Part shown: positions 49,775 to 54,139 of the stretch, one piece after another
Position numbering within the stretch: position 1 is the stretch's first letter
Layout of the letters: the number at the start of each line of letters is the position of its first letter
NCBI RefSeq assembly: GCF_001403635.1
Contig: NZ_LN879468.1
Span: forward strand, 1,628,501 to 1,692,500
DNA length: 64,000 nt
Reading direction: 5' to 3'
Source of the DNA: Clostridium massiliamazoniense
GTDB lineage: Bacteria; Bacillota; Clostridia; Clostridiales; Clostridiaceae
Translations under genes and position numbers: made by a program
Notes under the pieces: generated by a model
What the model was told of the DNA's origin: nothing
Seen by the model: the letters and a program-made list of their open reading frames with translations, nothing else
Databases searched by the model: none

Positions 49775-52237
49775 TTACTTAGCGACTAAAGAAAAATTTA
49801 TACTTCTTTCATCATTTACAGCTTCTAAAGTATCTCCATTATTTATTTTTCCTAGCAATATATCCTCACTTAATTTATCTTCTATATATTTTGTTATAAC
49901 TCTTTTTAGTGGTCTTGCACCATATTGTAACTCATTTCCTTGTCTAACTAAAAACCTCTTACTTTCATCAGTGAAATTTATTGTTATATTATTATTTTTA
50001 AGTCTATCCACAGTATCCTTCAATAAAATATCTATTATTTTAATTAAATCATCTTCAGTCAACTGATGGAAAACTATAATTTCATCTAATCTATTAATAA
50101 ATTCTGGTTTAAATCCCTTCTTGAACTCTGCTAACATATGCTCTTTCATTTCTTCATATTTTTCTTTATTTATATCCTCTTTATATGAAAATCCTAATTT
50201 ATTTTGCTTTTTTAAAGTATCTGCTCCTATATTAGATGTCATTATTATTATGGTATTCTTAAAATCAACGACTTTTCCTTTTCCATCTGTTAATCTTCCA
50301 TCTTCTAATATTTGCAATAATATGTTAAACACATCTTTATGAGCTTTTTCTATTTCATCTAACAGTATAACTGAATATGGATTTCTTCTAACTTTTTCTG
50401 TTAATTGCCCACCTTCGTCATATCCAACATACCCTGGAGGGGCACCTATAAGCTTTGACACATCATGTTTTTCCATATATTCTGACATATCCACTCTTAA
50501 CATATGTTCTTCACTTCCAAATAACGCACTTGCAAGAGCTTTACATATTTCAGTTTTTCCAACTCCTGTTGGTCCTAATAATACAAAAGATCCCATAGGT
50601 TTCTTTGGATCCTTTAATCCAACTCTTGATCTTCTTATTGCTTTTGCTAAAGCCTTTATAGCTTCTTTTTGTCCAATTACTCTTTCTCCTAATGTTTTTT
50701 CTAAATTTAATAATTTTTCACTTTCTCCTTCTGTTAATTTCTCAACAGGAATTTTAGTCCATCTAGCTACAATAGCAGCAACATCATTTTCATCTAATGT
50801 TTGTTGTTTATTATTTTTTTCTAAAACCCAATTATTTTTTAATTTATTTAATTCAGATTTCAATGTTTTTTCCTTATCTCTTAATCTAGCTGCTTTTTCA
50901 AAATCTTGCATTGATATAGCATCTCTTTTTTCCATAGTAGTTTTTTCTATTATTTTTTCTAACTCTAGTATATTTTCTGGCATCTTAAATCCTTCTATTT
51001 TAATTCTTGCTGCCCCTTCATCAATTAAATCTATGGCTTTATCTGGTAAAAATCTATCATTAATATATTTAACTGATAATTCCACAGATGCATTTATAGC
51101 TTCATCAGTTATAATAACTCCATGATGATTTTCATAATTACTTCTTAGTCCCTTCAAGATACTTAAGGCATCTTCTTTTGTAGGTTCACCAATAGTAACT
51201 GGTTGAAATCTTCTTTCTAAAGCTGTATCTTTTTCAATGTGTTTTCTATACTCATCTATAGTTGTAGCTCCTATGCATTGAATTTCTCCTCTTGCTAGAG
51301 CCGGTTTTAAAATATTTGATGCATCTATAGCCCCTTCTGCTCCTCCAGCCCCTACTATAGTATGAATTTCATCTATAAATAAAATTACATCCTTATTTCT
51401 TTTTAACTCATTAATAGCATTCTTTAATCTATCTTCAAACTCACCTCTGTATTTTGCACCAGCAACCATAGATGTCAAATCTAAAGTTATAATAGTTTTA
51501 TCTTTAAGTATATCTGGAATGTCACCAGAAACTATTCTTTGAGCTAAACCTTCTACAATTGCAGTTTTTCCAACTCCTGGTTCTCCTATTAAACATGGAT
51601 TATTTTTATTCCTTCTACATAGGATTTCTAATACTCTTTGTGTTTCATCATCTCTTCCTATTACCGGATCTAATTTTCCATCTTCGGCTAATGAGGTTAA
51701 ATCTACTCCATGTTTTAATAACACATTTATATCTTTTTTATCCTTACTTCTTTTCTTATTTTCTATTTTATCTTTATCCACTATTCCTTCATTTTCATAA
51801 CCTAAGTAATCTCTTAATTGCTTTCTTATCTTACTAAAATTAACTTCTAAATTACTTAATATTATATATGCAACGCTATCTTTATCCTTTATTAAACTTA
51901 ATAAAATATGCTCTGGTAAAACATAGGTTACATTAGCTGATCTTGCTTCAGAGATACTTTCTTCTAAAATTCTTTTTGTTCTAGGGGTTATAGGAATTTC
52001 TAGTAAAGGATAACTCATATCTATATCACCAATTCCTATATATTCCTTTATTAAAGCTTTAACTCCATCTAAAGTTACATTCATTGATTTCAAAATTTTT
52101 TTTGCTTCACCATCATCATTTAATATACCAACTAAGATATGTTCTGTTCCTACGTATCCATGATTAAATTCATTTGAAATAATTTTTGCATTATCTAAAA
52201 CCATCTTAGCTCTATCAGTAAATTTATCAAATATCAT
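49775..52237 (-). CDS. clpC: ATP-dependent Clp protease ATPase subunit ClpC
   Basis: AAA+ unfoldase that feeds ClpP, 820 residues. Double Clp-N domain (1-145), D1 Walker A GEPGVGKTA (218-226), UVR/M-domain coiled coil in the middle (ISMQDFEKAARLRDKEK), D2 with GPTGVGKTE. Glu32 (GTEHIL), which binds phosphoarginine in Bacillus, is kept. The second pocket reads LPEHIL (Glu109) instead of GTEHIL. Confidence 0.96.
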   Translation of the reverse strand: MIFDKFTDRAKMVLDNAKIISNEFNHGYVGTEHILVGILNDDGEAKKILKSMNVTLDGVKALIKEYIGIGDIDMSYPLLEIPITPRTKRILEESISEARSANVTYVLPEHILLSLIKDKDSVAYIILSNLEVNFSKIRKQLRDYLGYENEGIVDKDKIENKKRSKDKKDINVLLKHGVDLTSLAEDGKLDPVIGRDDETQRVLEILCRRNKNNPCLIGEPGVGKTAIVEGLAQRIVSGDIPDILKDKTIITLDLTSMVAGAKYRGEFEDRLKNAINELKRNKDVILFIDEIHTIVGAGGAEGAIDASNILKPALARGEIQCIGATTIDEYRKHIEKDTALERRFQPVTIGEPTKEDALSILKGLRSNYENHHGVIITDEAINASVELSVKYINDRFLPDKAIDLIDEGAARIKIEGFKMPENILELEKIIEKTTMEKRDAISMQDFEKAARLRDKEKTLKSELNKLKNNWVLEKNNKQQTLDENDVAAIVARWTKIPVEKLTEGESEKLLNLEKTLGERVIGQKEAIKALAKAIRRSRVGLKDPKKPMGSFVLLGPTGVGKTEICKALASALFGSEEHMLRVDMSEYMEKHDVSKLIGAPPGYVGYDEGGQLTEKVRRNPYSVILLDEIEKAHKDVFNILLQILEDGRLTDGKGKVVDFKNTIIIMTSNIGADTLKKQNKLGFSYKEDINKEKYEEMKEHMLAEFKKGFKPEFINRLDEIIVFHQLTEDDLIKIIDILLKDTVDRLKNNNITINFTDESKRFLVRQGNELQYGARPLKRVITKYIEDKLSEDILLGKINNGDTLEAVNDERSINFSLVAK

Positions 52238-52261: not shown

Positions 52262-53275
52262 TCAACCAATTAATCTCTCTCTTATTATCTTAGCCCTTAA
52301 AATTTTTTCTTCTTCTTCATTCTTGTTATTTTTTGACATTACTTTTAAATTATAATATTGTATATCTTCTATTAGCTTATCTACTGTTGCTAACTTTATA
52401 GAATCTATTAAATAAAACTCTATACCTAATCTTAATTTAGATAGTAAATCTATGGCTTCTTCAAAAGTTATTATCCTTGCATTTGTTAATACTCCATAAG
52501 CTCTGAAGACCTCATCTTCTACAGCATTTATAAATGCATCGTTATTCATCAACTCATCCCTAAACCTTTTTTCTTTTAATATTATTTCATTTGCCACTGC
52601 TTCTAAGCAGCCTATAATTTCTTCCTCAGTATCCCCTAAAGACTTGATGTTACTTATTTCATAAAAAGCTCCATTACCTTCTCCAAAAACACTACTTAGA
52701 CCTACATCTATATTTTTTAAGTTTAATTTTAAATCTTCCACTTCTCCCTTATAACTTAATATTGGTATATGCAAGACTAAATAAATCTTCATAGCAGTGC
52801 CTAAATCATTTTTATCCATAGTTAAATAACCTAGCTTTTCATCAAAAGCAAATTCAAATTCATCGTCTAGATAATCATCTAAATCTTTCACCATCTTATA
52901 ATTTTCGCTTAAAGATAAACCTATTGTCGTTTTTACTATGGTTATATGATTACCTTCATTTAACATTACAGCTACGCCACTTAAATCATCATAAAGAAAT
53001 TCACCACTTTCTTTATTGTTAAATAAGTGTTCATTAATTAAACCTCTTTCTAAAAATTGGCCACTTGTCTCTCTTGATTCTTCCCTTATTTTAAAAACTT
53101 TAAACTTATATTTCTCTAAATTTAATATTTTATTTTTTATTTCTCTAGCAATCTCTATTGCGTCCATATTATCTAAAAAAGAGGAATATATTTTATCATC
53201 TAAATTTCGAATTAAAGAAACTTTTGACTTTAACACTATATTTTTATTGCACCTATTTTGTAACTTTCTATTCAT
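52262..53275 (-). CDS. mcsB: McsB-family protein, probable pseudokinase
   Basis: 337 residues, alignable end to end with protein-arginine kinase McsB (FDEKLGYLT, FGEG, RAYGVLTNAR, LRLGI, RAKIIRERL). Key residues of the active enzyme are changed: SSRIRLARN reads KSKVSLIRN (16-24), NEEDHIRI reads NEGNHITI (106-113), and TSCPTNxGTGLR reads TMDKNDLGTAMK (152-163), losing catalytic Cys, Asn and Arg. The phosphoarginine-sensing RDxxRA reads EKILRA. Frame intact, so not a pseudogene. Sits between mcsA and clpC. Confidence 0.88.
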   Translation of the reverse strand: MNRKLQNRCNKNIVLKSKVSLIRNLDDKIYSSFLDNMDAIEIAREIKNKILNLEKYKFKVFKIREESRETSGQFLERGLINEHLFNNKESGEFLYDDLSGVAVMLNEGNHITIVKTTIGLSLSENYKMVKDLDDYLDDEFEFAFDEKLGYLTMDKNDLGTAMKIYLVLHIPILSYKGEVEDLKLNLKNIDVGLSSVFGEGNGAFYEISNIKSLGDTEEEIIGCLEAVANEIILKEKRFRDELMNNDAFINAVEDEVFRAYGVLTNARIITFEEAIDLLSKLRLGIEFYLIDSIKLATVDKLIEDIQYYNLKVMSKNNKNEEEEKILRAKIIRERLIG

Positions 53276-53276
53276 T

Positions 53277-53783
53277 CTATTCCTCCTCTCTTTTAAATTC
53301 TTTTTCTAAGTCCTTTAATTTATCTCTTACAGTCGCTGCTTTTTCAAATTCTTCGTTTTTTATTAATTCTTTTAACTCTATTCTTAAATTATCTATACTT
53401 CTTTTATTCTTTATTTCTTCTCTTTTTCCTCTAGGAACTTTTCCAATATGCTCTTTTCCCTCTAAAAAGTCATACTTCTGAGAAAAAACTTTATAACATT
53501 CACTACAACCACAAATTCCACTTTCCTTAAAATCCTTGTAAGTTCTACCACATTTTTTGCAAAATAATTCACTTTTTTCATCTTCTTTATAGTTGTCCAT
53601 ATAATCCAATAAGCCATTTAATATTTTATTAAAATTCAATTCCTCTTTTACTTCCTCTTCAACTGATATATTATTTATTTTTAGAGCACACTCTTCACAA
53701 AGCATTTTATGCTTCTTTTTTCCATTTACTATATTTATAAAATGAACAACAGCCTTATTTTTTTTACAAATTTCACATATCAT
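53277..53783 (-). CDS. mcsA: McsA-like zinc-finger/UVR protein
   Basis: 168 residues from ATG with GAGAGG seven bases upstream (an earlier TTG is rejected). Cys pairs CEICKK, CEECAL, CKKCGR and CGCSEC form two zinc modules. C-terminal UVR motif (ELIKNEEFEKAATVRDKLKDLEKE). In Bacillus McsA activates McsB and tethers it. First gene of this operon, where ctsR would be expected before it. Confidence 0.92.
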   Translation of the reverse strand: MICEICKKNKAVVHFINIVNGKKKHKMLCEECALKINNISVEEEVKEELNFNKILNGLLDYMDNYKEDEKSELFCKKCGRTYKDFKESGICGCSECYKVFSQKYDFLEGKEHIGKVPRGKREEIKNKRSIDNLRIELKELIKNEEFEKAATVRDKLKDLEKEFKREEE

Positions 53784-54139
53784 AATATAACCTCTCAAAT
53801 TTAAATATTTATTTAAATAATCAATATATATTTATCTAATGACTAGTATCTGTTTCCTCATAACTAATATCTGTACTACTAAAATCTCTATAAGTTTAAT
53901 ATAAAAGACACTCATCCCTAGATAAGGACCTATAAAATTCATTTAGAGTCAAAACTCTATCTAAATTAAGTCTTAATATCCTCAATTATCTAACCTAGTC
54001 TCTTATCTTATTTTTAACAAAAAACCTCTTAATTTATTCTTATTATAAAATATATTCGTAATTTCATTATTTTCTCTCTATTTGTTTAAAAATATATTTA
54101 TTGCAAATAATTATTAATATGTATTAGGAGGTGCATATT
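53784..54139. other. Gene-free stretch between mcsA and the MBL-like gene
   Basis: Divergent promoter region. It holds dispersed repeat copy C (53838-53985) and AT-rich DNA. No ctsR, no CtsR heptad tandem repeat and no CIRCE element seen. Confidence 0.75.
53838..53985 (+). repeat. Dispersed intergenic repeat, copy C
   Basis: ATGACTAGTATCTG, then a second AACTAATATCTGTACTAC, CTCTATAAGTTT, CTAGATAAGGACCTATAAAATTC and ACTCTATCTAAATTAAGTC. The left end appears duplicated. Confidence 0.75.

Follow-up and report, generated by a model that had tools for sequence, protein, structure and literature searches.

An McsB homologue with a degenerate kinase active site in Clostridium massiliamazoniense, probably kept as a scaffold beside McsA

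The window analysed here, 64,000 nucleotides of Clostridium massiliamazoniense DNA, encodes an McsB homologue with a degenerate kinase active site, a state shared across a clade of related clostridia. McsB is a stress protein that normally marks damaged proteins with phosphate. The window protein appears to be kinase-dead and probably survives as an McsA-binding dimeric scaffold that would act on ClpC. The loss of the kinase, the binding of McsA, the binding of ClpC and the action of the complex are what we infer from the residues, the gene neighbourhoods and the relatives described below. For the clade as a whole we lean narrowly towards the reading that a large group of clostridia dropped arginine phosphorylation altogether, with YwlE lost and the McsB active site eroded, and that selection maintains McsA and a catalytically dead McsB in its McsB-bearing lineages as a module that serves ClpC quality control without a kinase.

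Gene and operon features

The window mcsB frame is open from ATG to stop, has AGGAGG just 5' of it and starts one base past the mcsA stop. The gene order is mcsA-mcsB-clpC and ctsR is absent (Table 1); GGTCA, the box looked for in the expected place of ctsR, is taken here to be the CtsR operator consensus. Residues 8-335 align with the McsB structure 6fh1 (E 1.7e-41), PF00217 (ATP:guanido phosphotransferase domain) scores 122 bits against a gathering score of 22.4, and both the phosphotransferase and the dimerization domain are found, in agreement with the original prediction of an intact, full-length homologue. The NCBIfam McsB models span nearly all of the protein but miss their cut-offs, the first scoring 257 bits where 385 are required and the second 201.5 where 500 are required; on the first, NF002194, three complete McsBs used as controls, two given from a start codon and one trimmed to its match, score 464-486. 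G022, a relative with none of the eight scored residues (see below) left, exceeds the cut-off of the NCBIfam 'protein arginine kinase' model, at 416 against 385 bits. Passing this cut-off is therefore no proof of activity, and automatic kinase labels can be wrong, as had been predicted for the window protein, which itself stays below the cut-off. A contig search with McsB peptide patterns gave 32 matches, none from a relative.

Table 1. Features of the mcsA-mcsB-clpC region, with positions in the window and residues of the window McsB; published roles are taken from the accessible parts of the papers named
Feature	Position	Strand	Remarks
clpC, 820 aa, equivalents of N-domain E32, K85 and E106 kept	49775..52237	-	
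intact 337-aa mcsB homologue with degenerate active site	52262..53275	-	
C-terminal dimerization domain, about residues 248-337, border approximate	52265..52534	-	interface, PMC12467219
EKILRA, residues 323-328, for the RDxxRA phosphoarginine receptor motif	52292..52309	-	not diagnostic
SSVFGE, residues 194-199, for RGIYGE: R207S, G208S; E212 kept	52679..52696	-	
TMDKNDLGTAMK, residues 152-163, for TSCPTNxGTGLR: C167D, P168K, T169N, R176K	52787..52822	-	
FDEKLGY, residues 144-150, equivalent to the S. aureus McsB Y147-Y153 loop, retained	52826..52846	-	loop role, PMC12467219
NEGNHITI, residues 106-113, for NEEDHIRI: E121G, D122N, R125T	52937..52960	-	
KSKVSLIRN, residues 16-24, for SSRIRLARN: R29K, R31S; R34 kept	53204..53230	-	essentiality, PMC7235348
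mcsA, four CxxC pairs, partner gene	53277..53783	-	NF053706 132.9 bits, cut-off of 210 not reached
region 5' of mcsA, expected place of ctsR	53784..54130	.	no ctsR, remnant or GGTCA box detected

Active site

Residue roles follow the accessible parts of PMC7235348, PMC12467219, PMC8370763, PMC5506225 and PMC12583610. In B. subtilis McsB, R-to-K changes marked each of R29, R31, R34, R125, R176, R207 and R337 as essential (Lilge et al. 2020, PMC7235348, available in part). Six of these seven arginines are replaced in the window protein (R29K, R31S, R125T, R176K, R207S and R337E) and only R34 is kept. The catalytic Cys167 corresponds to Asp154 of the window McsB (C167D); in B. subtilis work C167S serves as the kinase-inactive allele, according to the portion of PMC7235348 at hand. 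The motif readings of the original prediction (KSKVSLIRN, NEGNHITI, TMDKNDLGTAMK and EKILRA) are all exact, and its statement that the catalytic Cys and the ATP-binding Arg residues are gone stands with the exception of R34. E121 and E212 (B. subtilis numbering), which we take to be catalytic residues of McsB, are Gly and Glu, respectively. The change of RDxxRA to EKILRA, also listed there, is present but not diagnostic: R337 is also missing from 46 of 125 catalytically complete McsBs, so that this change is weak evidence of inactivity and was rejected as proof of it. A loss of kinase activity in the window McsB, as predicted from its residues, is well supported.

Distribution in the order

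A set of 225 genomes of the order, entered from a Caloramator locus, contains 175 with an McsB match, all of which were retrieved and scored at eight residues (R29, R31, E121, R125, C167, R176, R207 and E212). McsB is complete, with all scored residues canonical, in 125 genomes, three of them with incomplete frames judged on the part present (G011 without the N-terminal part, G018 split, G224 at a contig edge). In G018 the gene is split into two frames (L171 and L173), yet the YwlE P-loop motif and ctsR are present. Degenerate McsBs, with five to eight of the eight residues replaced, occur in 47 genomes (one incomplete, G081); two genomes are partial with two residues replaced (G086 and G200), and 51 have no McsB frame (50 without a match and G220 with fragments only). 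This split of 174 McsBs into 125 canonical and 47 with five to eight replacements, two lying between, argues against chance divergence of one protein. What had been read as a single odd gene is, by alignment with clostridial McsBs, a clade-wide state. A second intact mcsB, which was to be expected if the window gene were simply decaying, was not found in the 47 degenerate genomes, 46 of which have one match and G081 two, each at a contig end; decay of the gene in relatives, the other expectation, is seen in one, G220. The replacements vary by lineage, and of seven newly conserved columns only R176K lies within the active site.

In a FastTree phylogeny of 104 ClpC proteins, with outgroups and controls from at least 80 distant named ClpC loci, the window ClpC groups with those of G216, G219 and G220 (support 1.00), beside G217, G218, G221 and G222. 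This group is nested in a main clade (support 0.94) with 50 sampled tips. The tree includes 39 of the 47 degenerate genomes, 38 inside the main clade and G120 outside; G121, which is not in the tree, has an McsB 82% identical to that of G120. The partial genome G200 is a neighbour of the main clade with a weak support of 0.41, and neither McsB nor the YwlE motif occurs in a separate group, G091-G106 (11 sampled). The Fitch root is 'lost' for all eight residues, yet for each of them at least one member of the clade retains it; the active site may have disappeared in a single event at the base or by repeated erosion. Between the window and G216/G219 the identity is 33-36% in McsB and 66-68% in ClpC.

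The phosphoarginine eraser YwlE

The 225 genomes were searched with the YwlE P-loop pattern CTGNTCRS, the Thr of which we take to be the selectivity residue. A single-residue basis of YwlE selectivity is reported in the accessible part of PMC5506225. The pattern matches 119 of the 225 genomes, comprising 117 of the 125 with complete McsB, two of the 47 degenerate, neither of the two partial and none of the 51 McsB-less genomes; a stricter pattern matched only 24, because many clostridial P-loops differ after CRS. A protein search was run on 32 genomes (eight complete without the motif, two complete controls and 22 without complete McsB). YwlE orthologues (E 1.2e-33 or better) were detected in all eight motif-less complete genomes and in both controls, so that motif and homology combined detect YwlE in 125 of 125 complete-McsB genomes. 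Among the 22 without complete McsB, a close homologue was found in one, G040; the other 78 genomes of this kind were scored by motif only. The G040 homologue (L385) reads DKIKAPYGG, with Ala for the Asp of the DP[YF]GG motif, presumably the general acid, and is therefore probably a dead phosphatase too. The weak match in G051 (E 2.6e-9, P-loop GNICRS) lies on a different contig from the motif match of that genome, which homology thus does not back. Six other genomes gave weak matches (E 2e-5 to 6e-4) with a P-loop of the CVHNSCRSQ type, which we assign to arsenate reductases. YwlE was not found by motif or homology in G216, G219 and G220. A Fisher test of the association (p 1.4e-30) is inflated, as it ignores relatedness; weight is placed instead on the ClpC tree, where the McsB kinase and YwlE are co-lost at least three separate times (main clade, G120 and the G091-G106 group).

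McsA partner, contact surfaces and selection

McsA was looked for in 60 operon regions and three more of the window clade. Of 41 regions with a degenerate or partial McsB (37 degenerate, two partial, G216 and G219), 40 contain it, with at least four CxxC pairs in 39 and three in G078; the only miss, G081, is a contig end. It was found in none of the 20 McsB-less regions within the retrieved stretch, nor beside the complete McsB of G224 at a contig edge. In G220 (L146, 6035-6852) mcsA lacks the fourth CxxC pair and mcsB exists only as fragments, followed by an intact clpC. Among the sampled regions McsA and degenerate McsB are thus kept, damaged or lost together. The retention of a degenerate McsB beside mcsA suggests a second job without enzyme activity.

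The S. aureus McsA-McsB assembly is held together by the pairs R262-E277 and F261-R271, and McsB touches the McsA zinc finger through its Y147-Y153 loop (PMC12467219, accessible part). The window protein keeps the equivalents of F261, R262, R271 and E277 as F257, R258, R267 and E273. Across 46 degenerate McsBs, R262 is kept in 44 and E277 in 46 at the interface, and Gly152 in 46 and Tyr153 in 45 in the loop; R271 and the middle of the loop are variable, as they are in complete McsBs. The loop is partly conserved, five of its seven positions keeping the complete-McsB consensus in fewer than 95% of the degenerate proteins.

The degenerate McsBs of relatives are under purifying selection that is relaxed mainly in the catalytic core. 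The median dN/dS is 0.196 (range 0.10-0.33) in 15 disjoint degenerate sister pairs, none of them from the window's clade, and 0.106 (maximum 0.365) in 45 pairs of complete McsBs. Dividing dN of the catalytic core (111-235) by dN of the C-terminal part (236-345) gives a median of 0.97 for the degenerate McsBs (15 pairs) and 0.54 for the complete ones (57 pairs; Mann-Whitney p 2.6e-6). Mean pairwise identity, compared with one in three of the complete McsBs, is 0.671 in complete and 0.478 in degenerate proteins at 111-180, 0.645 and 0.430 at 181-235, 0.472 and 0.454 at 236-290, and 0.470 and 0.398 at 291-345, so that the end of the C-terminal domain is relaxed too. The window clade is too divergent for dS; between the window and G216 mcsB, the second codon position is the least changed (0.335, with 0.508 and 0.532 at the other two).

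These data bear on the main rival, that the window gene is a relic in slow decay, functionless since arginine phosphorylation and ctsR were lost and simply not broken yet. Such a relic would hardly be expected to retain 337 open codons behind a good ribosome site, or to change least at second codon positions between the window and G216/G219; the frame and a four-pair McsA are kept in all three of these divergent lineages, and dN/dS values from the other degenerate lineages tested lie well under 1. Decay is nevertheless what the fragments of mcsB and the damaged mcsA of G220 look like, and they establish that mcsB can be lost in the window's clade. The absence of ctsR from this clade and the complete disappearance of mcsA and mcsB from seven McsB-less regions with ctsR fit decay as well, as does the divergence of the McsBs of the window clade, which at equal ClpC distance matches or exceeds that of other degenerate McsBs. 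On balance, decay is regarded as unlikely.

CtsR, ClpC and the proposed role

CtsR is present in 176 of the 225 genomes. Outside the window's clade ctsR lies in 37 of 39 degenerate or partial regions (absent in G081 and G120), and it runs into clpC in 7 of the 20 McsB-less regions (ctsR then clpC in L332, L333, L336, L337, L339, L340 and L341), the retrieved stretches of which have no mcsA and no trace of mcsB (tblastn, E 0.01). The 176 CtsR genomes do not include G216, G219 or G220, and ctsR was also not found within the window. A role confined to CtsR, by which McsB would remove the repressor from DNA on McsA oxidation with no kinase step, has a precedent in B. subtilis, where McsB lifts CtsR off DNA in a kinase-free manner when McsA is oxidised (PMC5506225, in the text available), and agrees with the frequent ctsR of the other degenerate regions. 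In the window group CtsR is found neither in G216, G219 and G220 nor in the window, and three of the four members keep mcsA-mcsB. CtsR control is thus not the sole reason to keep McsB in G216 and G219, for which it was excluded as the only role, and probably not in the window lineage either; as a general explanation it is quite improbable.

All of the 39 degenerate and 21 McsB-less genomes sampled have the phosphoarginine-pocket residues E32, K85 and E106 of ClpC intact, so that no loss of the phosphoarginine reader is seen. Pocket loss was rejected: E32 and E106 are present in all groups, and K85 throughout the sampled genomes of the order. The same sites also hold the resting state of ClpC, as described in the accessible part of PMC12583610. 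Arg9 of the ClpC N-domain is Glu or Asp in G216, G219 and G220 and Arg in the window.

The preferred reading, an McsA-binding dimeric scaffold, would run as follows. Degenerate McsBs would have arisen as the phosphoarginine circuit, with McsB as writer and YwlE as eraser, was abandoned. The dimeric protein would still bind McsA and, via McsA or directly, may act on ClpC or present clients without phosphorylation. Where relatives have ctsR, McsA and McsB together may control CtsR too; in the window clade, since no ctsR was found, a ClpC-directed role is left. The scaffold of the original prediction is in this way upheld to different degrees: kinase loss is predicted from the residues, selection in relatives, retained contacts and common fate point indirectly to an McsA scaffold, and the contact with ClpC is presumed. 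In B. subtilis the stimulation of ClpC by McsB requires kinase activity (PMC5506225, accessible part), which disfavours a simple kinase-free ClpC adaptor. The intact ClpC pockets, the partly conserved McsA loop, the relaxed end of the C-terminal domain, the low McsB identity to G216 and G219 and the fragmented gene of G220 also weigh against the preferred reading. A kinase-independent adaptor effect is reported in the same species, where McsB C167S shortens the half-life of MgsR relative to a deletion; for this turnover the authors point to ClpX and not to ClpC (PMC7235348, in the part consulted).

Some pseudokinases bind nucleotide differently or transfer another group. That the window McsB is still an enzyme by such means is very improbable: the window protein retains the fold, E212, R34, H123 and the G-T of GTG, and Lys most often takes the place of R29, R176 and R207 (29, 34 and 23 of 47), but in B. 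subtilis McsB one R-to-K change is enough to abolish activity (PMC7235348, in part), the lineage-specific replacements form no new conserved catalytic-looking set, and the nearest relatives yielded no YwlE.

Comparison with known systems

The window McsB resembles the active McsBs of B. subtilis, Geobacillus and S. aureus in its full-length homology, the mcsA-mcsB-clpC operon, both domains, the dimer salt-bridge residues and an McsA partner with two zinc fingers. It differs from them in the replaced ATP-binding arginines and catalytic Cys, an operon without ctsR, and nearest relatives without detectable YwlE. As a putatively kinase-dead McsB it is comparable to the B. subtilis laboratory allele C167S, which still lowers MgsR half-life relative to a deletion (PMC7235348, partly accessible); unlike that allele it is natural, has most of the active site changed and is kept over deep divergence. 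Bacterial pseudoenzymes such as Ser/Thr pseudokinases and the CspC pseudoprotease, as their abstracts describe them, likewise have lost catalytic residues in a protein that is kept; unlike the Ser/Thr pseudokinases, the window McsB has a guanidino-kinase fold. In the accessible part of PMC12599244, on bacterial pseudokinases, McsB appears only in the reference list. The McsB-less ctsR-clpC operons of related clostridia share the absence of a kinase-competent McsB and are without the YwlE motif, but those clostridia, unlike the window lineage, dropped mcsA and mcsB together. No report of an inactive clostridial McsB was found in the literature at title and abstract level, subscription papers being largely outside this search.

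Kinase and adaptor roles of McsB are hard to separate in B. subtilis, according to the available portion of PMC5506225. The degenerate-McsB genomes look like a natural separation of the two, with the kinase chemistry gone and McsB and its activator McsA kept. If this is true, a kinase-independent McsA-McsB function becomes directly testable, the conserved core function of the pair would be other than phosphorylation, and the window lineage, where ctsR is also missing, would represent the simplest surviving form of a kinase-free McsA-McsB module. A clostridial clade would then be able to live without the phosphoarginine circuit, which steers spore germination in B. subtilis (PMC10117790 and PMC11841064, accessible parts), and databases in which such proteins are labelled arginine kinases would need correction.

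Other McsBs with replaced residues

The McsB of Clostridium sp. 1001270J_160509_D11 (L030, 2966-3952) is degenerate and lies outside the main clade; Cys167 is kept, most arginines are lost, and the protein is possibly of separate origin. In Lachnoanaerobaculum, Lacrimispora and Coprococcus catus (L019, L040 and L049) the catalytic Cys of McsB is replaced by Tyr, Phe or Ser, and most arginines are kept in the first two (L019 and L040).
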